This document shows positions 946-29,423 of a DNA stretch of 43,683 nt, piece by piece. Position numbers and translations under genes: made by a program. Source of the stretch: a virus; IMG/VR virus record IMGVR_UViG_3300042305_000849, positions 1-43,683 of that record; one strand, written 5' to 3'. The first letter of the stretch is position 1, and each line of letters begins with the position of its first letter. The notes under the pieces are model-generated. The model saw only the letters and a list, made by a program, of their open reading frames with translations. It was not told the DNA's origin and made no database searches.

Positions 946-1623
946 ATGCAAACTTGGACAGAAAAACAAGACCTGGGTAACGGAATCTTTTTATATAAAA
1001 ATGTTATAAAAAAAGAGTTTGACGTTATTAATAGATTAGAAAATGTTTTAGGAGAAATTGCACCACAGGGAGAGCCATTAAAAGATGGAAAAATTTATCG
1101 TTGGAATCCAGCATTCGTAGGGTATAGAGAGTTAATGCCTTTATATAGAGACTGTAGTGATTTTAAATTTAAAAAATCTGATATTGAAAAAGATATAAAT
1201 GAAGACTCTGTTGCCCTTCAATCATTATGGCAAGATGTTTATGATGCACAATTTCATGCAGTAGAAGACTATAGAGCACATCACAATATTATGCCTTTAA
1301 AATATTGGGAAGCGTTTAACTTTATTAAATATGGACCAGGACAACATTTCCAAGAGCATCACGATCATGGTTTTTCATACAACTGCACAGTGTCTTTGGT
1401 TGCATACGTAAATGATGACTACGAAGGTGGAGAATTATTTTTTAGGCTACAAAACATAAACGCTAAGCCAGAAGCGGGAGATCTGTTTATCTTTCCTTCT
1501 AATTATATGTATCCACATAGGGCTATGCCAGTTCATTCTGGAACAAAATATTCTATTGTTACTATGCTAGATTACAATAAAAAGTTTCACACTAGAGAAA
1601 TGTATCTTCCAGACGAAGACTGA
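946..1623 (+). CDS. 2OG-Fe(II) dioxygenase (prolyl-4-hydroxylase-like)
   Basis: 225 residues. The iron-binding triad is visible: His138-x-Asp140 (in EHHDHGF) and a distal His191 (PHRAMP). Between them is the family core VNDDYEGGELFF, and the usual 2OG-binding basic residue appears to be Lys201 (GTKYS) rather than Arg. This is the 2OG-FeII_Oxy_3 / P4H-like fold, which hydroxylates proteins, nucleobases or small molecules using 2-oxoglutarate, oxygen and Fe(II). The substrate cannot be read from sequence. AAAGGGGT precedes the ATG at a normal distance. It ends in a TGATG overlap with the next gene, so it belongs to a coupled operon. Confidence 0.88.
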   Translation: MQTWTEKQDLGNGIFLYKNVIKKEFDVINRLENVLGEIAPQGEPLKDGKIYRWNPAFVGYRELMPLYRDCSDFKFKKSDIEKDINEDSVALQSLWQDVYDAQFHAVEDYRAHHNIMPLKYWEAFNFIKYGPGQHFQEHHDHGFSYNCTVSLVAYVNDDYEGGELFFRLQNINAKPEAGDLFIFPSNYMYPHRAMPVHSGTKYSIVTMLDYNKKFHTREMYLPDED

Positions 1624-2342
1624 TGCTAAACATATCAGTTGAAAAACAAAACAATTCTCATGTAGACATATCCCCAATGTCTATAAAAAGAGATTGGATG
1701 GACGAAACTCCAGAAAAACATGCCTATAGGTGTTTTCCAGTAACCCAAGCAAACATGGTTGGCTGGAATCTGTATTGCGATGAGGATGTTAAGTTTATTT
1801 GGAATGGAACAACTGATACTTCTCCGGAAAATGTTAAAATTTTACAAGGGGAAGATTTTACATATTCGGGAAGAGGTCAATCTACCGTAAGTTTTATAAC
1901 TGGACTGGTATTTAGATCAGAAAAAAACATTAGTTTTTTAGTTATTAATCCAGTCAACTATTTCAATCCTGATTTTGAAACTATGTCTTACTTAGTAAGC
2001 ACCTCCTGGTATGATAACGACTTTCCATTAGCAATCAGGGTAAAAACTGCTAATAAAGAAATTACAATAAAGGCGGGGGATCCGATTGCAACAATAATTC
2101 CAATATCTTTAACTTCTATTGATAATACAACTATAGAGATGTTTGATTATTACGATAAAGACAGCATTCGTTATAACAATAATAAATCTTACGGTGACGC
2201 TGCAAGAGGCATAATCGAAAGCGGTAGGTGGACTGATTGGTATAGGGATGCTGTAAACGAAAAAGGAGAAACTCTTGGCTCTCACGAAACCAAGGCTTTA
2301 CGTCTTTTTGTAAATAAAAATACAAAAAAGAAAGTGGTATAA
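1623..2342 (+). CDS. DUF6065-like protein of unknown function (second copy)
   Basis: 239 residues. It shows the block order I associate with DUF6065: a near-N-terminal DW, then RCFPVTQANMVGWNL (36-50), FITGLVFRSE (91-100), INPVNYFN (108-115), TSWYDNDFPL (127-136), and AGDPIATIIPIS (151-162). The blocks line up in order with those of the protein at 146, though identity is low. No catalytic residues are known. It overlaps the preceding dioxygenase gene by 1 nt (TGATG). An extended -10 promoter for the next gene is embedded in its last codons. Its repeated company with dioxygenases suggests a linked function, but this is inference only. Confidence 0.6.
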   Translation: MLNISVEKQNNSHVDISPMSIKRDWMDETPEKHAYRCFPVTQANMVGWNLYCDEDVKFIWNGTTDTSPENVKILQGEDFTYSGRGQSTVSFITGLVFRSEKNISFLVINPVNYFNPDFETMSYLVSTSWYDNDFPLAIRVKTANKEITIKAGDPIATIIPISLTSIDNTTIEMFDYYDKDSIRYNNNKSYGDAARGIIESGRWTDWYRDAVNEKGETLGSHETKALRLFVNKNTKKKVV

Positions 2343-2343
2343 T
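2335..2343 (+). promoter_or_regulatory. extended -10 promoter (TGGTATAAT), leaderless type
   Basis: Perfect TGnTATAAT; hexamer 2338-2343 lies across the stop codon of the upstream gene. The next ATG (2350) begins exactly 6 nt after the hexamer and has no Shine-Dalgarno site, predicting a leaderless transcript and a second transcription unit inside the dioxygenase block. Confidence 0.7.
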
Positions 2344-2349
2344 TTTATT

Positions 2350-3024
2350 ATGATAGAAATAAGCAATTTAAACCCAAGAAAAGAAATGTCAATAACACCA
2401 TCTGGGTTTTTTGGCAATGACAAAAGCATGATTGTTGAGCTAGAAAACTTTATGACAAAAGATGAAATTGATTTTTTAGAACATGCTGCTAAGTCTATTA
2501 CAATTTGGGATATTTCAGAAACCCATGTAAATGAAAATGGAACTATTACATACGACTCAGACTATTGGAAAGATAGAGTTGCCAATAGATCATCTTTAGA
2601 TAAAAATGATCCAAAGATTGGTCCAGTTATTGAAGGACTATTTAAAAGACTGCAACCAATCATTGAGGACTTTTTTAGTGTTAAGGTAGTCCCTACAGGA
2701 CAAAGCATTGTTAAATGGCTTCCTGGGCAATTTCAAAATCCTCATGCAGATAAAGAACTCCATGAAGGTCCAGATGCTGGACTGCCAAACGATTTTCCAC
2801 ACTATGACTTATCTAGTCTATTTTATTTAAATGATGACTATGAAGGTGGAGAGCTTTACTTTCCGCTTCAAGATGTTAAGTTTAAACCCAAAAGAGGTGC
2901 AGCCTATTTTTTCCCAGGAGATAAAAACTTTATACACGGAGTAACAGAAATAAAAAGTGGTTTAAGATTTACTTGTCCATTTTTTTGGGAAATTTTAAAA
3001 CACACTGGCGAAAGGCAGCCATGA
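2350..3024 (+). CDS. 2OG-Fe(II) dioxygenase (prolyl-4-hydroxylase-like)
   Basis: 224 residues. Iron ligands are His132-x-Asp134 (NPHADK) and distal His196 (IHGV); Arg206 (LRFTCPFFW) is the expected 2OG carboxylate anchor. The core strand LNDDYEGGELYFP is almost the same as in the neighbouring paralogs. All catalytic residues are present, so an active enzyme is expected; the substrate is unknown. Translation probably begins on a leaderless mRNA. The stop overlaps the next start (ATGA at 3021-3024). Confidence 0.9.
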   Translation: MIEISNLNPRKEMSITPSGFFGNDKSMIVELENFMTKDEIDFLEHAAKSITIWDISETHVNENGTITYDSDYWKDRVANRSSLDKNDPKIGPVIEGLFKRLQPIIEDFFSVKVVPTGQSIVKWLPGQFQNPHADKELHEGPDAGLPNDFPHYDLSSLFYLNDDYEGGELYFPLQDVKFKPKRGAAYFFPGDKNFIHGVTEIKSGLRFTCPFFWEILKHTGERQP

Positions 3025-3833
3025 CTGATGCTCAAGATACAATAGAGTATGAGGTTTTATTTGACAAAGTTCATATTTATAAAAACCTAATAAAAGATCC
3101 TTTAGCTTTTGTAGAAATTTTAAAAGACTCTGAAATTAATCCAGATAAAAGTCCTTTATTTTTTGATTGGCAAAAGTGGTCAACCTTTGGAACATATATG
3201 TCATCAACAAGACAAATTATGCCTGAAGATGAAATAAGTTTATCTGATAAAGGCAAAGAAGAAAAACAGTATAGAGATAATATTGAAAAAGCTTTTAAAG
3301 ATAGTGTTGCTCACTTCCTAAACAAGTATAATCTATCTGTTGATAAAAGTTGGGAAACCATGGGCCCATCATACTGTAAATACTATTCAGACCTTAAACC
3401 ACATGATACAGAAGAGCCTTTAGCCATGGTTCCACATACCGACTACCAATGGTATGAGTTTGATTCAGATAGATCTAAGTTTGCAGTAACGTGTGCTATT
3501 TATCTTAATGATGATTATGATGGCGGAGAGTTGATATTTACCGTTAAAGGAAAAAAAGAAAAAATAAAATATAAGCCAAAAGCAGGAGACGTTGTTGTTT
3601 TCCCGTCAGGGCATCCAGATCTTTTATCTGAAGAAGGATTATATTACCATGCAGTTGGCCATGTTTCTAAAAAAGAAAAATATTTTATTAGGTGTTTTTA
3701 TTTAATTCCAAACAAGCCATCTGAAAAGTTTTTAGAGTATCAACAAAAATATGGTAAAGAAGAATGGCTAAAAAAATATGACGAAATTATGCAGTATAGA
3801 ATTAAAACCAAAACAGTAGATGAGTTAAAATAG
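3021..3833 (+). CDS. 2OG-Fe(II) dioxygenase, longer form
   Basis: 270 residues from ATG 3021, chosen over the upstream in-frame ATG at 2973 because 3021 overlaps the previous stop as ATGA and removes a 16-residue N-terminus lying inside the upstream gene. Ligands: His139-Thr-Asp141 and distal His210 (YYHAVGHV); a Lys at about 220 (KEKYF) may replace the usual Arg. Core LNDDYDGGELIF is conserved. The N-terminal half is longer than in its paralogs and the C-terminus has a charged helical extension. Substrate unknown. It is followed 1 nt later by the gene at 3835. Confidence 0.88.
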   Translation: MTDAQDTIEYEVLFDKVHIYKNLIKDPLAFVEILKDSEINPDKSPLFFDWQKWSTFGTYMSSTRQIMPEDEISLSDKGKEEKQYRDNIEKAFKDSVAHFLNKYNLSVDKSWETMGPSYCKYYSDLKPHDTEEPLAMVPHTDYQWYEFDSDRSKFAVTCAIYLNDDYDGGELIFTVKGKKEKIKYKPKAGDVVVFPSGHPDLLSEEGLYYHAVGHVSKKEKYFIRCFYLIPNKPSEKFLEYQQKYGKEEWLKKYDEIMQYRIKTKTVDELK

Positions 3834-3834
3834 A

Positions 3835-4548
3835 ATGACAGAAAGATCAGAAGTGGTTAGCCACCTGTCAATAAAAGGTTTTACCCTTAACCCTTTAAAA
3901 AGTGAACATCTTGCAAGAAACCTTCTTAATGGATTGGGAACAACCTATGAAAAAAAACATACATGTGACTGGGACCCTAACTTAACACATTCTTATCACT
4001 TTGAAGGAATTATTCCAGGATCAATAGTCTGTAATTACATAGAAGATAAAGGTTCTAGGGGAATGATTGGCTTTGCAGCATTGGTAAATGGTTATTATGT
4101 TTTAAGAATTTGGGACGAATACAAACCAGCACAAATTGAGTTTAACGTATATGTTAGGGGAGACCTAGACCCTGATATTTGCTTAGATCATTTAAAGGCT
4201 CCATATGCCAAAGAAGATGGTGTTGTGGATGGGCTTGGAATGTTTGATTTTTCATATTCTATAGTAAAAGAACCAATTCCATTTAATCAAATAATGAAAA
4301 CAAACAAAGAGTTAAAGCCATACGCTATTAATGCAGAAGGCTATAAAGTTTTGGACATTATTAGCTGTTATTGCTGTCCCATGCAAGCAAAATATTGGGG
4401 TATTCTGCCACCAGCACCATCCAAAGATTATAGAGATAGCATAGAAGATTCTTGGATACGAGAAAATTATGAAAATGGATTTTACAAAAATAGCTTTATG
4501 AGTGTTCCAATATGTGAAAATCATAGAAACGATACAAGGAGCGAATAA
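3835..4548 (+). CDS. AdoMet decarboxylase (SpeD)-like protein lacking catalytic residues, tentative
   Basis: 237 residues. Residues about 52-120 resemble the SpeD fold: a His-Tyr-His-Phe-Glu-Gly stretch (53-58), a strand ending YVLRIWDE (88-95) that lines up with the SpeD signature SIHTWPE, then FNVYVRGDLDP (103-113) lining up with the DxFTCGD region. By this alignment the pyruvoyl-forming Ser is Gly86, the catalytic His is Arg91 and the catalytic Cys is Arg108, so normal self-cleavage and decarboxylation are not expected. The C-terminal third is unique, with a CYCC cluster. It may be a repurposed SpeD fold or an unrelated protein. The match is by eye and weak. It sits between two dioxygenase genes with tight spacing, so shared function is plausible. 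Confidence 0.35.
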   Translation: MTERSEVVSHLSIKGFTLNPLKSEHLARNLLNGLGTTYEKKHTCDWDPNLTHSYHFEGIIPGSIVCNYIEDKGSRGMIGFAALVNGYYVLRIWDEYKPAQIEFNVYVRGDLDPDICLDHLKAPYAKEDGVVDGLGMFDFSYSIVKEPIPFNQIMKTNKELKPYAINAEGYKVLDIISCYCCPMQAKYWGILPPAPSKDYRDSIEDSWIRENYENGFYKNSFMSVPICENHRNDTRSE

Positions 4549-4550
4549 AA

Positions 4551-5219
4551 ATGAAAAGCAAAAATGATATAGAGGTAAAAAATTTTAAGCATGATGTTTT
4601 CTATGTTGAAAATTTTCTTACAAATGAAGAGTGTGATGGACTAGCCCAATACTTTGACAATGAAGGTCAGGCCTGGGATTTTATAGCTTTTTATGGTGCA
4701 TCTGGAAAAGGTCTACAAGACACAAGCCCAACCCTTTTGAATTATGGATTACCAGAAACTTTTATTAAAGATTTAAGAGTAGAAATGCTAGATCATGTTG
4801 AAGTCGTATTTGAAAGAAAGCTAAGAGCAAACACATCACACGCTCAAAAGTGGGGTATCGGTGGATTTGCCAACCCACACTCAGATAATTCAGATTTTGA
4901 TGGAACCCCAAATGCTTTTGAAATTAATAAATATGTAACCCTACTGTATCTTAATGAAGATTTTGGTGGTGGAGAATTATTTTTTCCAGACCATAAATTA
5001 GAAATAAAGCCTAAGAAAGGTATGTTAATTTCATTTCCTGGCGGTCATGAGAATATTCATGGAGTAAAAGAAGTAACAAGTGGAGAAAGACATACAATGA
5101 TGGCTTTTTGGGATTATGCTGAAGCAGAATACTCACAAGAGACAAAAGATAAATGGGAAGAAGAAATAAAGGGTATTAGAAAAGTTCAAGAAAAACAAAA
5201 AGAGGAGTGGTCAAAATAA
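4551..5219 (+). CDS. 2OG-Fe(II) dioxygenase (prolyl-4-hydroxylase-like)
   Basis: 222 residues. Ligands His110-Ser-Asp112 (NPHSDN) and His170 (NIHGVKEV), with Arg180 (GERHTMMAFW) as the 2OG anchor. Core LNEDFGGGELFFP. It is closest in layout to the protein at 2350 (same HGV and FW endings). The last 35 residues form a Lys/Glu-rich helix. An AAGGAG ribosome site lies before the ATG. Active enzyme expected, substrate unknown; ends 2 nt before the next paralog's start. Confidence 0.9.
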   Translation: MKSKNDIEVKNFKHDVFYVENFLTNEECDGLAQYFDNEGQAWDFIAFYGASGKGLQDTSPTLLNYGLPETFIKDLRVEMLDHVEVVFERKLRANTSHAQKWGIGGFANPHSDNSDFDGTPNAFEINKYVTLLYLNEDFGGGELFFPDHKLEIKPKKGMLISFPGGHENIHGVKEVTSGERHTMMAFWDYAEAEYSQETKDKWEEEIKGIRKVQEKQKEEWSK

Positions 5220-6756: not shown

Positions 6757-8790
6757 ATGTCAGAAAGCGTATTTTCATTTCGTCTATCAGAGGATTTTGT
6801 AACAAAATACTCACTAACCCCAGCACCTTTTGGTTTTTCAGATGCAGGGTCTAACTCTTTGGGGGAAATTACCTTCATTAGGACGTATTCTAGAATGAAA
6901 GAAGACGGAACAAAAGAACGCTGGCACGAAGTTTGTCGTCGTGTAATTGAAGGCATGTATTCGGTTCAAAAAAATCATGCTAAAGATAATCGTTTACCAT
7001 GGAACGACAATAAGGCACAAAAGTCTGCCCAGGAAGCTTTTCAGAGAATGTTTGAACTAAAGTGGACACCACCAGGACGTGGACTATGGGCATTTGGAAC
7101 TCCTATGACTATGGAAAAGCGTAACTCTGCATCCCTTCAAAATTGTGCAATGGTATCTACTCGTGATATTGATCGCAATGACCCAGGCGCCCTTTTTGCT
7201 TGGGTAATGGATGCTTTAATGTTAGGTATAGGTGTAGGATTCGATACTATTGGTCAAGATAAAAATATGCCAATTTATGAACCAACAGAACCAGAAAATA
7301 TTTGGGAAATACCAGATACTCGTGAAGGATGGGTAGATTCAGTTAGAATGCTATTAAACTCATATCTTCGTCCAAACCAATCTATTCAAAAGTTTAACTA
7401 TGACCTTATCCGTCCACTAGGAGCACCAATTAAAGGCTTTGGTGGCGTTGCTAGCGGTCCAGCACCACTTATTGCGCTACATGACAGGATAAATCATGTT
7501 ATTGGCTCTAGAGCTGGAGAGACGCTTGATTCTAGGGCTATTGTTGATATAGTTAATCTTATTGGAACCTGTGTTGTTTCAGGAAATGTTCGTAGGTCTG
7601 CTACTCTTGCCCTTGGAGCCTCGGGAGATGAAACATTTATTAATCTTAAAAATCCAGAAGCATTTCCAGAAAGAAATTCTTATGATTCAGAAAAACCAGG
7701 ATGGGCTTGGATGAGTAACAACTCTATTGCTGCTGAGGTTGGAACAAAGTATGAAGATTATGTAGATTTAATTTCAGATAATGGTGAGCCAGGTTTTATT
7801 TGGCTTGATGTAGCTAGAAATTTTGGTCGTCTTGCAGATCCTGCAGATGGAAAAGATTCTAGAGTTATGGGGTTTAATCCTTGTGCAGAGCAACCGCTAG
7901 AGTCATATGAATTATGCACACTTGTAGAAGTGCATTTAAATCGCCATGAATCTAAAGAAGACTTTCTTAAGACATTAAAGTTTGCCTACCTATACGGTAA
8001 GACTGTAACTCTTCTTCCAACACATTGGCAACAAACAAACGGTATTATGCAACGTAACCGCAGAATTGGAACATCTCTTACTGGCATTGCATCATTTGCA
8101 GATGAGAATGGACTTCCAGCTGTTCGTGAATGGATGGATGAGGGATATCAAAAGATTCGTCACTATGACCATGAGTATTCTGAGTGGTTATGTGTTCGTG
8201 AATCAATTCGTGTAACAACAGTTAAGCCATCAGGCTCTGTATCACTTCTTTCTGGTGCTACTCCTGGAGTTCACTGGGGCCCTGGTGGTGAGTTTTACCT
8301 TCGTGCTATTCGTTTTGGTAATACAGATCCTATGCTACATTTATTTAAAGCAGCGGGATATAAAATTGAAGATGATCTAGTCTCAGCAAATACTTCAGTA
8401 GTATATTTTCCAATAGCATCAGGACACAAGCGTTCTGAAAAAGAAGTTAGCTTATTTGAAAAAATTGGTTTAGCAGCAACTGCTCAAAAATACTGGTCAG
8501 ATAATGGTGTTTCTGTAACACTTTCATTTGATAAACAAGAAGAAACAAAGTTTATTGCTCCAGCCCTCAATATGTATGAAGGACAGCTAAAGGCAGTCTC
8601 ATTCCTTCCCATGGGAAATAAGACTTATCCTCAACAACCTTATACCGAAATTACTCGTGAAGAATATAATTCTCATGTGGGTAAAATTGGTAAAATTGAT
8701 TGGTCTGCTATTTATGATGGAGTAGAAAATCTTGAGGCTGAGGGAGAATCTTATTGCTCTACAGATGCCTGCGAGATTAAATTATATTAA
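6757..8790 (+). CDS. nrdJ: adenosylcobalamin-dependent (class II) ribonucleoside-triphosphate reductase
   Basis: 677 residues, near the 739 of the monomeric Lactobacillus leichmannii enzyme. It reduces ribonucleotides to deoxyribonucleotides for phage DNA synthesis, using a thiyl radical made with coenzyme B12. Visible residues: Cys130 (QNCAMVST) and Cys387 as the redox pair, Asn374-Pro-Cys376-Ala-Glu378 as the radical Cys and general base, and a C-terminal Cys667-x4-Cys672 pair (CSTDACEI) that would re-reduce the active site. The Cys376-to-Cys387 spacing of 11 matches the family. No N-terminal ATP cone is evident. Own promoter and AAGGG ribosome site. Codons for Arg are mostly CGT here, unlike the AGA-rich dioxygenases next door. 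Confidence 0.93.
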   Translation: MSESVFSFRLSEDFVTKYSLTPAPFGFSDAGSNSLGEITFIRTYSRMKEDGTKERWHEVCRRVIEGMYSVQKNHAKDNRLPWNDNKAQKSAQEAFQRMFELKWTPPGRGLWAFGTPMTMEKRNSASLQNCAMVSTRDIDRNDPGALFAWVMDALMLGIGVGFDTIGQDKNMPIYEPTEPENIWEIPDTREGWVDSVRMLLNSYLRPNQSIQKFNYDLIRPLGAPIKGFGGVASGPAPLIALHDRINHVIGSRAGETLDSRAIVDIVNLIGTCVVSGNVRRSATLALGASGDETFINLKNPEAFPERNSYDSEKPGWAWMSNNSIAAEVGTKYEDYVDLISDNGEPGFIWLDVARNFGRLADPADGKDSRVMGFNPCAEQPLESYELCTLVEVHLNRHESKEDFLKTLKFAYLYGKTVTLLPTHWQQTNGIMQRNRRIGTSLTGIASFADENGLPAVREWMDEGYQKIRHYDHEYSEWLCVRESIRVTTVKPSGSVSLLSGATPGVHWGPGGEFYLRAIRFGNTDPMLHLFKAAGYKIEDDLVSANTSVVYFPIASGHKRSEKEVSLFEKIGLAATAQKYWSDNGVSVTLSFDKQEETKFIAPALNMYEGQLKAVSFLPMGNKTYPQQPYTEITREEYNSHVGKIGKIDWSAIYDGVENLEAEGESYCSTDACEIKLY

Positions 8791-20299: not shown

Positions 20300-20938
20300 A
20301 TGGCATATAGTCGTGGAACATCATCCAACATTATCGTTGGTGCAGCAGCACTTTTTGTTGCAGATACAACCCTAACTCCAAATACATTGGAGTCTTTTAG
20401 CACTGAAGTATCATTCAGAGAAACACTCTCAGATGATGCAACATATACTAACGTAGGTTACACCATGAACGGTCTAGAAATGCAGTTCCAACCAGACTTC
20501 GGTGAAGTTCAGGTTGACCAAATTCTTGACGTTGCTAAGCTTTATAAGCAAGGTATGCAAGTTAATCTTGCAACTGCCTTTGCTGAAGCTACCCTTGAGA
20601 ACCTTCTCTTGGCTCTAGCATTTAGCGATACTGAAATGACTGGATCCGTCAACACTCACACAGGCAAGTCTTTGAACTTATCTGCAGGAGATATCGGTGA
20701 ATGTCCAGTAGAGCGTGGAATTGTTGCAGTAGGACCTGGAACAGGTGATTGCGTAGATTCTCCATTTGTGGAGCGTGTCTACACAGCATACCGTGCTTTG
20801 TCAATTGAAAACGTAACAGTTTCAGCAAAGCGTGATGAGGCTTCAATGTTTGAAGTATCATTCCGTTTGCTACCAGAGGATACTTCAGGATCATACGGTA
20901 AGATCGTTGACCGCACATTCGGAGACCTTCTATCATAA
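20300..20938 (+). CDS. major tail tube protein
   Basis: 212 residues. A single-gene transcription unit with its own promoter, a strong AGAGGTGA ribosome site and a terminator right after the stop, as expected for the abundant tube subunit. The sequence has the tube-like strand pattern (TSSNIIVGAAALFVADTTL, then FSTEVSFRETLSDD; C-terminal VTVSAKRDEASMFEVSFRLL). Codons are GC-richer than in surrounding genes. Lies just before the tail chaperones and tape measure, the classic position. Confidence 0.82.
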   Translation: MAYSRGTSSNIIVGAAALFVADTTLTPNTLESFSTEVSFRETLSDDATYTNVGYTMNGLEMQFQPDFGEVQVDQILDVAKLYKQGMQVNLATAFAEATLENLLLALAFSDTEMTGSVNTHTGKSLNLSAGDIGECPVERGIVAVGPGTGDCVDSPFVERVYTAYRALSIENVTVSAKRDEASMFEVSFRLLPEDTSGSYGKIVDRTFGDLLS

Positions 20939-20957
20939 TAGTTTAACTATACTTCAC

Positions 20958-20991
20958 AGCCCATGTCTTCGGATGTGGGCTTTGTTGTTTT
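20958..20991 (+). terminator. intrinsic terminator with cUUCGg tetraloop
   Basis: AGCCCATGTC (20958-20967), loop TTCG, GATGTGGGCT (20972-20981): a 10-bp stem containing two G-U pairs and closed by a C-G pair around the very stable UUCG tetraloop, followed by a T-rich tract (TTTGTTGTTTT). It isolates the tail tube transcript from the chaperone genes. Confidence 0.88.
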
Positions 20992-20992
20992 A

Positions 20993-21001
20993 TGGTAGAA
21001 T
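20993..21001 (+). promoter_or_regulatory. extended -10 promoter (TGGTAGAAT), near-leaderless, weak hexamer
   Basis: TG then TAGAAT at 20996-21001, one mismatch to consensus. ATG 21011 begins 9 nt later without a ribosome site. Predicts low-level, near-leaderless expression of the long tail chaperone. Confidence 0.55.
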
Positions 21002-21010
21002 TGAATTTCT

Positions 21011-21706
21011 ATGGCAACTACAATATATAAAAGTGAAATAATTCAATTATTAGATGGAACTAGTGTAGAAATTGTGCCATTAAAAATTAAATATCTTCGT
21101 GAATTTATGAAAGCATTTGAAAATGTAAAAATAACTAAAAATGATGATGAAGCAATTGCAGCATTAGTAGAATGCGTAAGGGTTTGTATGAAACAATACT
21201 ATCCATCAATATCGGGCAGCGTTGAGGATATTGAAGAAAATATTGATATGCCAACAGTCTATTCAGTTTTAGATATTTCCGCTGGCATAAGAATTAATAA
21301 AAAATCTGAAGAGCCAGTAAAAACCCAAGCAGTAGAAAGTGGTTCTACCTGGGAAGATCTTGATCTTGCTAAGTTAGAGTCAGAGGTATTTTTGCTGGGT
21401 ATATGGAAAGACTACCAAGAGTTAGAGTTATCACTATCTATGCCAGAGCTAATGGCAACACTAGAAGTTAGTAGAGAATTAGATTATGCTGAAAAAAAGT
21501 TTATGGCTGCTATTCAGGGTGTTGACCTAGATAAACAGTCGGGGAAAAGCAAGGGACAACAAGAATGGGAAGATATGAAAGCTAGAGTATTTAGTAAAGG
21601 GCAAACTAGTGATTCAAATGATATATTATCTTTACAAGGACCAAAAGCTCAAAAGCTTGGGTTTGGTATAGGTATGGGATTAGATTACGAAAATCTAACA
21701 CAGTAA
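21011..21706 (+). CDS. tail assembly chaperone, long form (G-T fusion in one frame)
   Basis: 231 residues. Residues 1-96 are clearly paralogous to the separate 110-residue protein at 21752 (shared LDGT/MDGT, VPLKIKYLREFMKAFE versus RPLKISLLRPFMKKFE, DMPTVYSVL versus DLPTVYKVI). Residues about 110-231 form an extra domain (WEDLDLAKLESEVF, LSMPELMATLEVSRE) in the position of the T part of lambda gpGT, which contacts the tape measure. In most long-tailed phages this long form comes from a -1 frameshift; here it is an uninterrupted gene. Weak, near-leaderless promoter. Confidence 0.75.
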   Translation: MATTIYKSEIIQLLDGTSVEIVPLKIKYLREFMKAFENVKITKNDDEAIAALVECVRVCMKQYYPSISGSVEDIEENIDMPTVYSVLDISAGIRINKKSEEPVKTQAVESGSTWEDLDLAKLESEVFLLGIWKDYQELELSLSMPELMATLEVSRELDYAEKKFMAAIQGVDLDKQSGKSKGQQEWEDMKARVFSKGQTSDSNDILSLQGPKAQKLGFGIGMGLDYENLTQ

Positions 21707-21714
21707 GCGCTTTA

Positions 21715-21723
21715 TGCTATAAT
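21715..21723 (+). promoter_or_regulatory. extended -10 promoter (TGCTATAAT) for the short chaperone
   Basis: Perfect consensus TGnTATAAT. Transcript start near 21730; leader of about 22 nt with AGGAGG at 21739-21744 before ATG 21752. Confidence 0.7.
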
Positions 21724-21731
21724 TAACATAG

Positions 21732-21741
21732 CCTATATAGG
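21732..21741. repeat. perfect 10-bp palindrome at the transcript start (CCTATATAGG)
   Basis: CCTATATAGG overlaps the first part of the AGGAGG ribosome site and the expected transcript start of the short chaperone; a GCTAT/ATAGC pair (21716-21720, 21728-21732) flanks it. It could be a small operator or simply chance in AT-rich DNA. Confidence 0.3.
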
Positions 21742-21751
21742 AGGATACACA

Positions 21752-22084
21752 ATGGCAACAGCAATACATGAGGGTGAAGAACTTGTTCTCATGGATGGCA
21801 CAAAGATTAAGGTTCGTCCACTTAAAATTTCTTTGCTCCGTCCATTTATGAAAAAGTTCGAGCAAGTAGCGGGGGTAGCAGAAGATAATGAAAAGTCAAT
21901 GACTCTTCTTATTGAATGTGTTCAAATTGCTATGGAACAATACAGCCCAGAACTGTCAAAAGACATAAATAAACTAGAAGAGGTTTTAGACCTTCCAACA
22001 GTTTACAAAGTTATTGAGGCAGCCTCTGGAGTTAAACTATCAGATGCAAATGCTCTTTTAAATACAGTGCTTGCAAACAATTAA
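21752..22084 (+). CDS. tail assembly chaperone, short form (G-like)
   Basis: 110 residues, corresponding to the N-terminal domain of the long chaperone at 21011. It has its own consensus promoter and a strong AGGAGG site, so it should be in excess over the long form, as gpG is over gpGT in lambda. A U UUA AAU heptamer in the correct phase lies at 22057-22063, about 19 nt before its stop, but a -1 shift there adds only about 18 residues before TAA at 22117-22119, too short for a T domain. Lies directly before the tape measure. Confidence 0.75.
   Translation: MATAIHEGEELVLMDGTKIKVRPLKISLLRPFMKKFEQVAGVAEDNEKSMTLLIECVQIAMEQYSPELSKDINKLEEVLDLPTVYKVIEAASGVKLSDANALLNTVLANN
22057..22063 (+). other. 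slippery-type heptamer TTTAAAT (possible relic)
   Basis: Zero-frame codons are CTT TTA AAT, so the heptamer T TTA AAT fits X XXY YYZ. The position near the end of a G-like gene matches the usual site of tail-chaperone frameshifting, but the -1 frame is short. May be a relic or chance. Confidence 0.3.
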
Positions 22085-22106: not shown

Positions 22107-25100
22107 ATGGCTGATGTAAATGCTAATATTGGCGTCCATATTGATACGTCAGCGGCCCTGGCAGAACTCAAAAATTTACAGCGCCAATTAGCGACCTTTC
22201 ATTCATCTGTAGCTAAAAATAGTGCAGCTTCTGCAGCAGCACAAAAAAATTTACAGACAAACCTTTTAAACTCCATCAATGCTACGGGCAAATTTTCTGC
22301 TCAGATGGGGAATGTAAGAACTTCAACGGAGTCATTTACTCACGCATTAGAGACAAATAAACTTTCTATGCGTGAGTATTTCCGTTATGCAGGCGGATCT
22401 ACTAGAACATTTGGAAGACTATTTAAACAAGAATTTGACACAATTGGCAAGGTAGCACAAGAGCGTGTAAAAACAATGCAGACTCAATATATTAAAATGG
22501 GTCGTGACGCATCTGGTGCAATGAAGGCTATGTCCATAAGACCAACTACTTTGAATATGAACGACTATGCTACCAAAACAGCAATAGCAGCACAAAAACA
22601 AGCATTACTAAATCAATTATTAAAACAAGGATCCACTAATCTTTTAAATTTTGGTAAAAATACACAATGGGCTGGTCGCCAACTTATGGTTGGTTTTACA
22701 GTTCCTCTTGCATACTTTGGATCTATGGCAGCAAAAACATTTATGGATCTTGAAAAACAGGCTATTAGATTTAGGCGTGTTTATGGAGATGTATTTACAG
22801 CTACTGAAGAAACAGATAAAGCTTTAGCAGATATACAAAAACTTGCTGAAGAGTTTACAAAGTATGGTGTTGCAATTGCTGATACTATGGAAATGGCAGC
22901 AGATGCTGCTGCAATGGGTAAAACTGGGGCAGAACTTACAGCACAAGTAGCACAAGCAACTCGTCTTGCAGTTCTTGGCGGAGTAGAACAATCTCAGGCA
23001 CTAGAAACAACAATATCTGTTACAAACGCTTTTGGTGTTGCAACAGAAGACTTAGCAAGTAAAATTAACTTTCTTAACGCAGTTGAAAACCAAAGCGTTG
23101 TATCTATTGAAGATTTAACAATTGCGATTCCTAAAGCAGGTCCAGTTGTAAAGCAACTTGGCGGAAGCGTTGAAGACTTAGCGTTTTTCTTAACTGCTAT
23201 GAAAGAGGGCGGTATAAATGCATCAGAAGGAGCTAACGCACTTAAGTCTGGACTTGCAGCATTAATTAATCCAACAGGCAAGGCAGTTGACATGCTTGCA
23301 GGATTTGGTGTTAACATTAATGCAATTGTAGAAGGAAACATGGGGAATGTTAGAGAAACAGTTATAGATTTTGCTCAAGCATTAGATACCTTAGACCCAT
23401 TAAACCGTGCTAGAGCTATTGAACAACTATTTGGTAAATTTCAATTTTCACGTTTGTCAACTTTATTTCAAAACGTAACAAAAGATGGAACCCAGGCTTC
23501 TAAAGTATTAGATCTTGCAGGAGCATCAGTTGAAGAACTTGCAATTATGTCTGAACGAGAGCTTGGTGTTTTAGAAGATGCAATTGGCACAGACTTTAAA
23601 GAGTCTATGGAACAATTAAAACTTGCCATAGCCCCAATAGGAAAAGAATTTTTAAAGGCAGTTACCCCAATTGCAAAAGCAATTGGAGGATTTTTAGAAA
23701 AATTTAATGATCTTGGTGATGGAACTAAAAAGTTTATTGTTATAGCAACTACTCTTGTTGGTGTGATTGGTCCAGTGCTATTAATGACATTTGGTTTGCT
23801 TGCTAACGGTGTTGCAAATATAATTAAACTGTTTATAACAATGAGGTCTGGATTTTTAAGAGCTGGTGCAAATAGCAATATCCTTGCACAACAAACTAGT
23901 TATTTAAATACCGAACAGCTAGAAGCAGCATCTGTTGCAGCTTCTTTAAATCAGGCGCATACAAAACTAACTCAATCTTTTACTATAGAAACATCTGCAA
24001 TAAAATTATTACGTCAAGCATATATTGATGCCACCATAGCAGCAACAAATTTTGCCAGAGCAAATCCAGGTATGATGATGCCAGGAAGAAAAGGGGCAGT
24101 TCCAAAGAAGTTTGCAACAGGAACAACTGGAATTCCAGGTCCAAGGGGCGCAGGAGATATTGTCCCAATTTTAGGTGCTCCTGGAGAAGCAATTATTCCT
24201 AGTAAAACAGCGCAGGACCCAAGATTTAAACCAATAATTGAGGCACTTGTCAATGGCACATTGCGAGGATTTGATAAAGGAACTGTAGATCTTCAACCAA
24301 TAACAAATTCTCCAGTTTCTGCAAGAAAAACAAAAGCATTAAAGCGTTATATGGATATGAAGTATGGTGGTCAACTTGGTGTAGATACCGAAGCAATGAG
24401 TAAATATAAAACACGAAGATCTGAATACCATGCAGTTTTAGATAGAATTCAGTATGATGAAAAAAGCAAAAAATATGTTTTTTACGATAAACAAGGAAAT
24501 ATAAAATCTACCTTTGATGAAAAACAGTTAAAGCATAACATAGCGTATGCCTTTAAAGAAGTTCCAAATTCACAGGGACAAATAACCAATAGGCCTATAG
24601 CCCCAAATGTTTTTGAACGTTTTATTGGTCGTGTTGGACAGTCAGGAAGCGGTGCTCCAAAACCTGTAAGAGTTTTAAGGCAGGCCAACAATCAAAGAAC
24701 TGCCGGACTTGGATTAAACAGAGAAAGTCTTGCTCTTCAAAAAGAATTAACCAGACAAGGTTTAACACCAGGTGAAATTGGAAAGTTTATGGGCAAGAGA
24801 GCAGAGTCCCATATATTTAACCCATTAGATCCAAAAACAAAATGGCAAAGTGGACTTACAATTTCTGATCATGAAGGAATTAACCAATACCTAAATCGTG
24901 CTGGTGAAAAATCTGTTGGAAAATTAATTAATAATGATAAATTATTAAAAGAATTAGGCTATACAGATAGAGATATTAAAGAATTAAAGAAATCTTATTC
25001 TTTTGCACAAAGAAAACAACAACCAATAAATGCAACACAATTTGGGCATTTAGCAAAAATTGCAGAGCTTGAAGTTAAAGCACACAACTCAGGAAAAGTA

Positions 25101-28100
25101 AAAAATCCAAAAATTTATCAAGCAAAAGGAATTCTTGGTGTTGCATCATTAAGAACTCCAGGAATTTGGCAAGAAATGCGAAAGAGCATTATAAAGCTTG
25201 GAGAAAAGCCCCGTCTTATAAATCAAAGAGAACAAGCACGTCTTGAAAAAGTAGCTGTTAAGCCAGGTCAAAAACCTAAAGATGTTAAAACTGGAAGAGG
25301 AGTTAATCCAAGCACAACTCCTTTAACAAAAACAGACAAGGCCGCAATTCCTAGTGGACAAAAGCTAAGCCATTCTAGAGGTATTCTGCTTGGTCGTGGA
25401 AGATTTGTTCCACCATTAGGAGCTACTGCAGAATTTGGATATAGCGCTAATCAAAGAATGCCTGGAATGCAAATGCCACCAGGCATGGCTATGTCAACAA
25501 TAGAAAAAGATTTTAAGGCTCAACAAAACTCTTTAAGACGACAAATTGAGTTAGTTGAAAAAAGAAGACTTAAAGCACTAAAAGAAGAACTAAAAATAAT
25601 TGAGGATAAAAATAAAACTGCTAAACAATCAGCTCCACTAACTAAGAAACAATTAGACCAGCAAAAACGTGAAGTAAGATCACAAAGAGTTGGCAGGATA
25701 GCGGGTCCAGTTGCTGGAATTGCTGGAATTGGAGCTATGGCAGGATTCATGACTGGCAATACTGGAGTGGGTAGTGCAATGATGGGAGTTTCTGCACTTG
25801 CAACAATAGCCCCAATGCTTACAAACCCTATCGGAATAGCTGTTGCTGCAGCAGCCACTCTTGCTGGAGGATTTTTCTTATTAAATAAAAGAATGGACGA
25901 TGCTACAAAGAAACAGGTAGCATATGTAAACTCTGTAACAGCAAGCACTAAAAAAATGCAACAAGTTGGTGAATTGACTAAAGAAATTGGAGCATCACAA
26001 ATTGCACAAGAACAGAGAGAGACTGGTGCAAGAACTAATGAATTTAGAACCGGATTTGACCGTGAAGATAACCAGTTTGGAACCACCTTCTTATCATCTG
26101 AAATTGGAAAAGAAATATTTAAAGGATTTAATGATAGTGTAGCAAAAGACGGTCCAAAAGCTGCTAAATTATTAGCAACACAGCTTGCTGCTTATATTTC
26201 TGATGGAGTAATGTCAGCAGAACAAGCAAACAGTGTAGCAAGAGCAATTGGAATTAATCTTAAAGATATGTCACTTTATACAAATATTAGTGGAGATCTT
26301 AGAGAGCTTATTGGTCCAGATGGACAAGACCTATTAACAAATCCGCTTAAAGTAAGATTAAGCATTATTTCTTCACAAGAGGACATGATTGATGAAGTAA
26401 AAAATAAAATGAAATCTGCAACATCGGATGAGTTTGTTTCTCAAGTAGCAGTTATAAATGCAAAAAATTTAGAAATTGTTTTAGCGCAAAGAGATGCTCA
26501 ATATCAAAGCAATCAAGCAATTATTGATGGTTTACAAAAACAAAAAGCGGCAACCACAGATAAAGCAAAACAATTACAATTAGAGAATCAAATTGTTGCT
26601 GCAAAAGCAAAACAAAAGTCAGAAGACCAAACTCTTGCAGCAAAATCTCAGCAAATAATTAAAGATGCTGAAATTTTGTATAACTCAGCAGTAGGCAATA
26701 GAAGTAAATTTATAGATGCTTTAACTTTTGGAATTGAATCAGCAAATAAAGATAACCCATTTTTATCAGATTTTAAAGATAAGTCTGCAGATATTATAAA
26801 TACACAAGATGGTATGGCACTTGAAGTTCAAATTAAAACTGCTGTTTTAGGCGGACAATTAAGTATTCCGGCAGCGATAAAGTTATTAGATATGTTTTCA
26901 GGAAAAACCGATAAAGAAGTAGCAATACTTAAATCAATTATAGAAACAACAGTTACATCACAAGATCCGGGCGTATTCCAAAAATTTATGGAAATTATGT
27001 CAGGTAAAGACATAAATCCAGAAATAAAGTTAGAAATTTTAACTGATGAAAAAAACTTTGAAGCCAGAGTTAAAGTATTGGATAAATTAAAAGATCTTGA
27101 TGGAGATGCCATAAATCTTGAAGCATTTGTTGATACAAAAGGAACAGCAGGTTTAGATGAACTTGTAAAAGACTTTGAAGCAGTAGAAAAAATTAAAAGT
27201 CCAATAACAGTAGAAACACTTGCTACAATAAAAACAATAACAGATGATCCAACTATAAACATGTCTGGCTTAGTTGATATTTGGAGTAAATATGAAAATG
27301 CAACTGATGAAATAAAAAAGACAGTAATACAAGAGTATATTGCTATATTTAAAAGTATTGGTGATAAAGAGGTTGAAGATTTAATTAAAAAAGAACTTGT
27401 AGGTAGCCCTGCTTCTCCAGATAGAATAGATGATAGAAAAAGGAACTTAGAGGCAAAGTATTTTACTGTTGATAAAGATGGTAAAAAAGTTCCAAATGCT
27501 CCAGCAGTTGCAGGTGCATTACTTGCTCAATCAGGAGTTGGCGCTCTTAATGAAATTCCATTTAAAAGGGACGACGACAATGATGATGGCTCTGTTAAAA
27601 AATCAGTTTTTGCAAATATTTTACAAGACCTAAAGCGAACAAGGAATGCAACAATTGATGCTCAAGGTGGAGCTAAAGAACTTATGCGTATTCTTGGTGG
27701 GGCAAAAGACCTAAAAGCATTTAATGGTATTGATCAACAACTATCCAAACTTGGCGCTAACTCTGATTTTATTGATTTTGTTGGTGGATTAGAAAATGCT
27801 GTTGAACAAAAAATTATTAAGATTAATAAAAAGGGAGTTGTTTCCTACGGAGAATTTGGAAAAGCTGCAAAAAAGGCTTATGACGAAAAACAATTAGGAT
27901 TATTTAGTGCTCAAAGTGCACAAGTAATTAATGAATCAATTAAGCAAAGAGATGCTTTCATTAAATTAAAGGCTGCTGGAGTTGAAACTGCAGACGCTCA
28001 AGAAATGCTTGCTGATTCAATCTTTGCAACTTCTCTTGCTGCACAAAAAAATCCTGTAGAAATCAGAAGAATGATTGCTGAATATAAAAATATGAAACTT

Positions 28101-29423
28101 GAGGTTCAAAAAACATTAGAAGAAACTGATCCAGAAAAAGCCTTTGATGTTGAAATGGACAAGGCTATGAAATATTATGACTTCCTTGAAAAAGAAGCTC
28201 GTGCTGCTGCTAAACCAGAAATTGATAGAATTGAAAAACTTATAGAAGTTAATGATAAATTAATTGAAGGTATGCAACGCACAATTGAAGAAAACTATGA
28301 TAGGCCAATTGAAAAATTTAATCAAGATTTAGCAATAATGGATAAGGCTGCTCAGGGTATTAACGATAAATATGATGCACAAGAAAAAGCACTCGAAAAA
28401 ATATCTAAAGTTAATGAAGAAATTTCACAACAAGAACAAGGAAGACTAACTCTTGCAGATGCTTTATCACAAGGAGATATAGCAGCTGCTGCTCGTGCTG
28501 CACAAGAAATGAGAGCAGAAGCAGCACAAAACGCAATGGAAAAAAGCTCTGAAGCACTTCAAGCAGCAAGAGAAGCAGAACTTGCAGGTCTAACAGTTGG
28601 TGGACTTACAAGAACACAAATTGAAGAAAAAATATATAGCCTTGAACAAGCTAGATTGCCAATTCTTGCTAGCATTAGAGACTTACAAGATAAAAATTAT
28701 AATCTTAGTAAAAAAGAATTAGAACCAATTACAGAAGCTTTAAGAATAAGAATTGAAAACATTGATACAGCAAGGACAGCATGGGAAAACCAAAAACTTG
28801 CAATTCAAAAAGCAGGGTTTGAAGCAGATAAAACTAGTGAAAGATTTAAGATTGCAGAAAGTATAGTTAATACAATTAAAAAACTCTGGGAAGATATTAA
28901 AGATAAGAATATAACCTTAACTATTAACACAGTTAATACAACTTCTGGTGGAGGCGGAGGCGGTGGCCAAGGTAGCAAGCGAGCAGAAGAAATAAAGAAA
29001 GCAACAGAGGAAGGTATTGCGCTCATGACAGAAGCAGAAATGGTTAGAGCTATGAATACAGGATACCTATCTTTAGGTGGACTAGTTCCTAAATATTTTG
29101 CTAAGGGCGGACTCTCAAGGGGAACCGATACAGTTCCAGCCATGTTAACTCCAGGAGAATTTGTAATGAGAAAATCTGCTGTAGATAAATTTGGACCAAT
29201 GCTTTCAGCAATGAATAGCCCAAGCTTTAAAATGTCAAATTTAGGATCTTATGACAAAGTGTCTTCTGGAATGAATAGTGTAGTAGATAACTCTAGTGCC
29301 ATGTATAATTATAATATTGGAATTACAGTTCCACAATCAAATGCAAATCCTAACGATATTGCAAATGCAGTTATTGGTCAGATTAAATATATTGATGCAC
29401 AAAGAATTAGAGGACAGAGATAA
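22107..29423 (+). CDS. tail tape measure protein
   Basis: 2438 residues, the longest gene. It sets tail length and is ejected ahead of the DNA. From ATG 22107 (AAGAGGTG at 22092-22099). Residues about 190-500 fit the TP901 tape-measure core (GRQLMVGFTVPLAYFGSMAA onward). Hydrophobic segments at about 544-580 and 1195-1260 may form membrane channels. A DIVPILGAPGEA motif near 670-705 and a DTVPAMLTPGEF motif near 2335-2360 are two copies of a signature normally seen once near tape-measure C-termini. Residues about 705-1190 are a charged region I do not recognise. The C-terminal part has coiled coils and a Gly-rich hinge near 2281-2290. Length predicts a tail of roughly 350 nm by the usual 0.15 nm per residue. 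Confidence 0.92.
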   Translation: MADVNANIGVHIDTSAALAELKNLQRQLATFHSSVAKNSAASAAAQKNLQTNLLNSINATGKFSAQMGNVRTSTESFTHALETNKLSMREYFRYAGGSTRTFGRLFKQEFDTIGKVAQERVKTMQTQYIKMGRDASGAMKAMSIRPTTLNMNDYATKTAIAAQKQALLNQLLKQGSTNLLNFGKNTQWAGRQLMVGFTVPLAYFGSMAAKTFMDLEKQAIRFRRVYGDVFTATEETDKALADIQKLAEEFTKYGVAIADTMEMAADAAAMGKTGAELTAQVAQATRLAVLGGVEQSQALETTISVTNAFGVATEDLASKINFLNAVENQSVVSIEDLTIAIPKAGPVVKQLGGSVEDLAFFLTAMKEGGINASEGANALKSGLAALINPTGKAVDMLAGFGVNINAIVEGNMGNVRETVIDFAQALDTLDPLNRARAIEQLFGKFQFSRLSTLFQNVTKDGTQASKVLDLAGASVEELAIMSERELGVLEDAIGTDFKESMEQLKLAIAPIGKEFLKAVTPIAKAIGGFLEKFNDLGDGTKKFIVIATTLVGVIGPVLLMTFGLLANGVANIIKLFITMRSGFLRAGANSNILAQQTSYLNTEQLEAASVAASLNQAHTKLTQSFTIETSAIKLLRQAYIDATIAATNFARANPGMMMPGRKGAVPKKFATGTTGIPGPRGAGDIVPILGAPGEAIIPSKTAQDPRFKPIIEALVNGTLRGFDKGTVDLQPITNSPVSARKTKALKRYMDMKYGGQLGVDTEAMSKYKTRRSEYHAVLDRIQYDEKSKKYVFYDKQGNIKSTFDEKQLKHNIAYAFKEVPNSQGQITNRPIAPNVFERFIGRVGQSGSGAPKPVRVLRQANNQRTAGLGLNRESLALQKELTRQGLTPGEIGKFMGKRAESHIFNPLDPKTKWQSGLTISDHEGINQYLNRAGEKSVGKLINNDKLLKELGYTDRDIKELKKSYSFAQRKQQPINATQFGHLAKIAELEVKAHNSGKVKNPKIYQAKGILGVASLRTPGIWQEMRKSIIKLGEKPRLINQREQARLEKVAVKPGQKPKDVKTGRGVNPSTTPLTKTDKAAIPSGQKLSHSRGILLGRGRFVPPLGATAEFGYSANQRMPGMQMPPGMAMSTIEKDFKAQQNSLRRQIELVEKRRLKALKEELKIIEDKNKTAKQSAPLTKKQLDQQKREVRSQRVGRIAGPVAGIAGIGAMAGFMTGNTGVGSAMMGVSALATIAPMLTNPIGIAVAAAATLAGGFFLLNKRMDDATKKQVAYVNSVTASTKKMQQVGELTKEIGASQIAQEQRETGARTNEFRTGFDREDNQFGTTFLSSEIGKEIFKGFNDSVAKDGPKAAKLLATQLAAYISDGVMSAEQANSVARAIGINLKDMSLYTNISGDLRELIGPDGQDLLTNPLKVRLSIISSQEDMIDEVKNKMKSATSDEFVSQVAVINAKNLEIVLAQRDAQYQSNQAIIDGLQKQKAATTDKAKQLQLENQIVAAKAKQKSEDQTLAAKSQQIIKDAEILYNSAVGNRSKFIDALTFGIESANKDNPFLSDFKDKSADIINTQDGMALEVQIKTAVLGGQLSIPAAIKLLDMFSGKTDKEVAILKSIIETTVTSQDPGVFQKFMEIMSGKDINPEIKLEILTDEKNFEARVKVLDKLKDLDGDAINLEAFVDTKGTAGLDELVKDFEAVEKIKSPITVETLATIKTITDDPTINMSGLVDIWSKYENATDEIKKTVIQEYIAIFKSIGDKEVEDLIKKELVGSPASPDRIDDRKRNLEAKYFTVDKDGKKVPNAPAVAGALLAQSGVGALNEIPFKRDDDNDDGSVKKSVFANILQDLKRTRNATIDAQGGAKELMRILGGAKDLKAFNGIDQQLSKLGANSDFIDFVGGLENAVEQKIIKINKKGVVSYGEFGKAAKKAYDEKQLGLFSAQSAQVINESIKQRDAFIKLKAAGVETADAQEMLADSIFATSLAAQKNPVEIRRMIAEYKNMKLEVQKTLEETDPEKAFDVEMDKAMKYYDFLEKEARAAAKPEIDRIEKLIEVNDKLIEGMQRTIEENYDRPIEKFNQDLAIMDKAAQGINDKYDAQEKALEKISKVNEEISQQEQGRLTLADALSQGDIAAAARAAQEMRAEAAQNAMEKSSEALQAAREAELAGLTVGGLTRTQIEEKIYSLEQARLPILASIRDLQDKNYNLSKKELEPITEALRIRIENIDTARTAWENQKLAIQKAGFEADKTSERFKIAESIVNTIKKLWEDIKDKNITLTINTVNTTSGGGGGGGQGSKRAEEIKKATEEGIALMTEAEMVRAMNTGYLSLGGLVPKYFAKGGLSRGTDTVPAMLTPGEFVMRKSAVDKFGPMLSAMNSPSFKMSNLGSYDKVSSGMNSVVDNSSAMYNYNIGITVPQSNANPNDIANAVIGQIKYIDAQRIRGQR

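Follow-up and report, generated by a model that had tools for sequence, protein, structure and literature searches.

Two paralogous genes probably supply the tail chaperones gpG and gpGT in place of a frameshift in a clade of uncultured phages

The phage genome analysed here (IMG/VR virus record IMGVR_UViG_3300042305_000849; 43,683 nt, called the window, with coordinates referring to the whole stretch on one strand) very probably produces the tail assembly chaperones gpG and gpGT from two paralogous genes that replace an ancestral frameshift, with the excess of G set by expression. Frameshifting between G and GT is regarded as near-universal in long-tailed phages, with T4 as the exception named in a review; in phage λ, the 30:1 ratio of G to GT is crucial, with G coating the tape measure protein and T recruiting the tube protein (PMC5009743). 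The two-gene system belongs to a whole clade and not to a single genome, and the earlier note on this DNA undersold the case.

The chaperone module of the window

Two intact open reading frames, spaced by 45 nt, lie between the genes for the major tail protein and the tape measure protein (Table 1). The gene order is major tail, long (GT), short (G), and tape measure, which places the pair where gpG and gpGT are expected. The major tail gene matches the annotated major tail protein of Streptomyces phages both in homology and in position. The long form (G and T, 231 residues) and the short form (G, 110 residues) are thus encoded by separate intact genes, as the earlier note had claimed. Scans across the window with Rfam and for tRNAs gave no matches.

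Table 1. Features of the two-gene chaperone module and its flanks, in window coordinates.
Feature	Position	Strand	Remarks
Major tail (tube) protein gene	20300..20938	+	phrog_2175, E 3.5e-31; directly upstream of chaperone module
Intrinsic-terminator-like UUCG hairpin and U-rich tract	20955..20991	+	RNA fold -16.2 kcal/mol, z -3.0
Extended -10 of long gene, TGGTAGAAT	20993..21001	+	9 nt to ATG at 21011; leaderless geometry; no Shine-Dalgarno
Long gene, putative GT chaperone, 231 aa	21011..21706	+	ATG start; G and T in a single reading frame; G, residues 1-97; T, about 112-231
Consensus extended -10 of short gene, TGCTATAAT	21715..21723	+	upstream of ATG at 21752
Shine-Dalgarno of short gene, AGGAGG	21739..21744	+	upstream of ATG at 21752
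Short gene, putative G-only chaperone, 110 aa	21752..22084	+	ATG start
Position homologous to ancestral slippery heptamer	22045..22051	+	T_GCA_AAT (Asp-Ala-Asn), formerly C_CCA_AAC/T (Asp-Pro-Asn)
Tape measure protein gene	22107..29423	+	phrog_10030, E 1.6e-95; PF10145, E 2e-25; directly downstream of short gene

The G parts of the two genes are clear paralogs, again in keeping with that note. Alignment of both proteins by BLASTP gives 40% identity and 73% positives over 97 residues (E 6e-29), and a profile-profile comparison of the long-G and short proteins, each aligned with its orthologs, gives a probability of 100 (E 3e-39, 99 columns). Both proteins match phrog_10504, which corresponds to G (E 2e-23 and 1e-21), and the long protein alone matches phrog_10474, which corresponds to the T part. 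A G domain common to both products along with a T domain in only one is the arrangement of a gpG/gpGT pair. Homologs of G and T in Streptomyces phages are annotated as tail assembly chaperones, and the T part of the long protein is homologous to the T open reading frame located in the -1 frame of frameshift phages. A Pfam search with the long and short proteins gave no significant family, chaperone families included. Purifying selection acts on the long gene as well as on the short one (median dN/dS of about 0.11 for LONG-G, 0.06 for T, and 0.10 for SHORT).

AlphaFold models of the two proteins, predicted from an alignment containing only rows with ATG starts, have mean pLDDT values of 76.8 (long) and 76.9 (short). 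Rather than having unrelated predicted folds, the two N-termini agree in the order and positions of their strands and helices. The G parts of both models have strands at residues 9-12 and 18-21, followed by helices at 26-40, 45-63, 71-77, and 80-91 in the long protein and at 26-41, 46-64, 72-78, and 81-92 in the short one. A search of BFVD with the long protein model identified viral tail assembly chaperones (E 2e-4 to 0.03), and the GT protein of N15 weakly. No significant match was found to either model in the PDB; the HK97 chaperone (2ob9) had a TM score of 0.41 but an E value of 2.9, and was discounted as evidence.

Relatives, slippery sites, and history of the probable duplication

Several hundred relatives occur in IMG/VR, from which the best 80 per query were fetched for five queries (~400 loci) and scored with HMMs for G and T. 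Contig edges aside, only two layouts were found among the ~400 fetched loci: an in-frame GT gene followed by a G gene, or a G gene whose T lies in the -1 frame. Removal of identical sequences left 129 distinct two-gene loci and 117 distinct frameshift loci, many of which are close relatives and not independent samples. A frameshift version, which the earlier note had suggested seeking among relatives, is therefore present in 117 distinct loci, including those of Streptomyces phages of the Stanwilliamsviridae. The two-gene group is large and consists of uncultured phages, mostly from aquatic metagenomes. Among isolated phages, matches were limited to 127 records of Streptomyces phages, all with just one place for G, and in annotated Stanwilliamsviridae examples a single G gene precedes a T that is in another frame. 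Judged from these Streptomyces phage relatives, the host would be an actinobacterium; the G profile found no relative in 84,980 species genomes. One locus with a broken long gene (L051, 5520-5680) contains a tandem repeat of about 30 nt, which is likely an assembly error or a single mutant, and was set aside.

Heptamers of the frameshift loci were scored in frame with G, close to where G and T overlap. The junction has C_CCA_AAY in 73 of the 117 loci, G_GGA_AAY in 33, C_CCG_GAA in 9, and A_AAT_TTG in 2, such that one of the first three is present in 115. The two frameshift relatives with A_AAT_TTG instead of C_CCA_AAY are L303 and L307, and C_CCG_GAA, an imperfect XXXYYYZ heptamer, is found at the junction in L083, L086, L163, and related Streptomyces phages. 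In-frame CCCAAA and GGGAAA are absent from all 129 two-gene loci, both where the short gene ends and at the long-gene junction, and in no such locus is the short gene followed by a T-coding frame. The combination that marks programmed frameshifting, a slippery heptamer where G ends plus an open T frame shifted relative to it, is accordingly missing from the two-gene loci. At the site homologous to the ancestral heptamer, GAC CCA AAC has become GAT GCA AAT in short genes or is replaced by other non-slippery or unrelated codons.

A frameshift product serving as the real GT would have told against the two-gene proposal, and a frameshift route to a second GT was looked for in both genes and found in neither. 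TTTAAAT or TTTAAAC occurs inside the short gene in 24 of the 129 loci, including the window, but no T frame follows, and -1 reading from these sites encounters a stop within about 18 codons. As for the long gene, some tandem heptamer is located near the junction in 23 of the 129 loci (the window junction being AAT AAA AAA TCT); these heptamers are conserved neither in kind nor in place, and 106 loci have none.

In a tree of G sequences, LONG copies form one clade (SH-aLRT 99) and SHORT copies form another (SH-aLRT 96), the latter nested within a grade of frameshift G genes. The same LONG and SHORT clades were seen in an earlier tree with fewer frameshift rows. The nesting of SHORT among frameshift phages argues for a single duplication with frameshifting as the ancestral state. 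A tree built from 600 columns of tape measure N-termini likewise puts two-gene phages within frameshift phages. Where exactly LONG belongs in the G tree is unsure due to long-branch effects, and the T domain is too short for its tree to resolve the order of events. LONG-G evolves faster than SHORT, with a median pairwise identity of 0.57 as compared to 0.72, and is the less conserved copy in 644 of 700 pairs.

Two loci (L364 and L368) have a frameshift module, and their G gene groups with frameshift G genes, yet by tape measure sequence they branch within the two-gene clade (AU test against two-gene monophyly, p 0.007). These may reflect module exchange or reversion. A single origin of the two-gene state followed by module exchange would be the simplest reading of the trees.

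Expression signals of the two genes

The earlier note had described a weak hexamer (TAGAAT) and a leaderless-type start for the long copy, along with a perfect promoter and AGGAGG for the short copy, and all of these are present in the window (promoters here being consensus matches in sequence). The asymmetry of strong signals for G and weak signals for GT, which that note had proposed as the source of the excess of G, is conserved across the 129 two-gene loci. Short genes have TGnTATAAT 18-37 nt before the ATG in 129 of 129 loci, as compared to 22 of 6450 shuffled intergenic regions (0.3%), and a run complementary to the 16S end of at least 5 bases at the Shine-Dalgarno site in 121 of 129. 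Long genes have their best -10 at 5-9 nt before the ATG in 127 of 129 loci, and mostly have no useful Shine-Dalgarno. The hexamers at the -10 of long genes are TAGAAT (50), TAAAAT (29), TATAAT (24), TACAAT (13), and TATACT (10). Codon usage agrees with this asymmetry, in that codon adaptation relative to major tail genes is higher for SHORT than for LONG-G in 43 of 44 representative loci and higher than for T in 44 of 44. The G genes of frameshift phages have a leader like that of the short gene, mostly 23-30 nt in length and with a Shine-Dalgarno run of at least 5 bases in 113 of 116, meaning that the short gene has kept the leadered promoter type of frameshift G genes.

Genes with a -10-like signal roughly 10 bp upstream of their start codon are taken to be leaderless, a type of gene that is common in Actinobacteria (PMC3160421). 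Since 24 of the 129 long genes have the consensus TATAAT, a weak hexamer is a trend among them, and what consistently sets the two genes apart is the leaderless start. Leaderless mRNAs can be well translated in Actinobacteria, and thus a leaderless start alone need not mean a weak one.

The terminator-like hairpin is situated between the major tail gene and the promoter of the long gene. By inspection rather than by a formal covariation test, hairpins with varying stem sequence were seen at the same place in the listed related loci.

TGnTATAAT also occurs upstream of many gene starts in the window (2335, 8800, 14568, 17147, 20232, 21715, and 36749 on the plus strand, and 6539 on the minus strand), with several of these sites only 6-10 nt from the start codon. 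It thus seems that the window phage relies on many separate promoters of the host type and on leaderless starts.

Proposed mechanism, alternatives, and known systems

In the mechanism we propose, a single G/T gene pair in the ancestor would have yielded both products, through -1 frameshifting at a slippery heptamer. Duplication of the module would have followed, with the long copy joined in frame to T so as to yield GT only, and the short copy losing T and the slippery site so as to yield G only. GT may be held low by the terminator, the usually off-consensus -10, and the leaderless start. The consensus extended -10 and the Shine-Dalgarno leader would make G abundant, together with adapted codons and with transcripts that read through from the promoter upstream. 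The ratio of G to GT is most likely set by transcription and initiation and not by slip rate. By analogy with λ, many copies of G would coat the tape measure protein and a few copies of GT would recruit the major tail protein; the relative strength of the promoters, the protein ratio, and these binding roles of G and T are what we infer, beyond the observed paralogy, conserved layout, loss of slippery sites, tree, conserved signals, and codon bias. A mutant of TP901-1 in which G and T are permanently fused forms particles that look normal but are non-infectious (PMC4493119), which shows why a fused GT gene needs a separate source of G; here this would be the short gene.

The short gene might instead be a duplicate of G that has taken on another role, such as that of a chaperone for a different tail protein, with the long gene supplying its own G by frameshifting at the junction or by proteolysis. 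The junction sequence of the window and the tandem heptamers near some other junctions are compatible with such a G-only product, as is the differing rate of evolution of the two G copies with a new role for the short gene. We consider this reading very unlikely, as the junction heptamers are unconserved and mostly absent, and it is the short gene and not the long one that keeps the ancestral G regulatory region, evolves more slowly, and is better adapted in its codons, as expected of the main G. In addition, contig ends aside, the short gene is present in every fetched two-gene locus. It is likewise highly improbable that a single read-through transcript covers both genes, with the ratio arising only from translation start strength (Shine-Dalgarno versus none) and the promoter-like sites being irrelevant. 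No terminator was seen between the genes, whose gap is mostly 25-69 nt, as a single transcript would have it. Against this stand the invariable TGnTATAAT before the short gene and the near-invariable leaderless-spaced -10 before the long gene, measured against the rarity of TGnTATAAT in shuffled intergenic sequence, and the terminator-like hairpin that precedes the long gene.

A further alternative concerns history only and leaves the working system the same: the in-frame fusion arose in one phage, and the second G was acquired later from another phage and not by duplication in place. In the G tree, LONG and SHORT do not form a sister pair: SHORT groups with a particular set of frameshift G genes, and LONG is on a long branch. 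Modules also seem to move, as evidenced by the frameshift module of L364 and L368 beside a two-gene-clade tape measure gene. The faster evolution of LONG means that its placement may be due to long-branch attraction, and duplication in place takes fewer steps, making acquisition unlikely, though less so than the two readings above. We therefore retain duplication in place. On balance, it is probable that duplication and a division of labour at the level of promoter and start codon replaced a conserved recoding event in a large uncultured clade, and that modules have since been exchanged between phages as interchangeable ways to set the same ratio of G to GT.

As in λ, a G-only protein and a G-plus-T protein share their G part and are encoded between the genes for the major tail and the tape measure proteins; unlike λ, which has one gene and a slippery site, there are two genes here, with no slippery site and with T in frame. 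The Stanwilliamsviridae phages (Coruscant, Circinus, Beuffert, EGole, and Faust) have direct homologs of both the G part and the T part, with gene order unchanged, but theirs is a single G gene whose T lies in the -1 frame, with C_CCA_AAY or C_CCG_GAA at the junction. The engineered TP901-1 fusion also joins G and T in frame, although that mutant has no separate G gene. In Microbacterium cluster EA1 phages, the chaperones are separate open reading frames with no evident frameshift according to the authors (PMC7302621, PMC6856279, PMC11659878). The absence of an evident frameshift is shared with the two-gene phages, but in the one EA1 phage checked, MillyPhilly (L402, 8381-9336), the second open reading frame is T only, whereas here each open reading frame has a G domain. 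The second MillyPhilly open reading frame has no similarity to the first (E 6.2), leaving no second copy of G, and shares 75% identity with the T that the EA4 phage Bustleton has in its -1 frame; this differing layout led us to reject EA1 as a precedent. No description of paired G and GT paralogs was found in openly accessible papers (subscription literature being outside the scope of the search), and with this reservation the pair appears to be an undescribed variant of the gpG/gpGT chaperone system.

The proposed replacement would mean that a long-conserved recoding trick is replaceable by gene duplication. A clade without the frameshift, with both states available and a tree between them, allows one to ask whether selection keeps the product ratio rather than the slip, and gives access to how a recoding element gets lost. 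For annotation, the absence of a frameshift beside a tape measure gene need not mean a failure of annotation, and adjacent pairs of chaperone-like open reading frames may be G and GT paralogs.

Elsewhere in the window, four 2OG-Fe(II) oxygenase-like genes are clustered with a DUF6065 gene (946-5216), and a ribonucleotide reductase of the B12-dependent type is encoded at 6757-8790.
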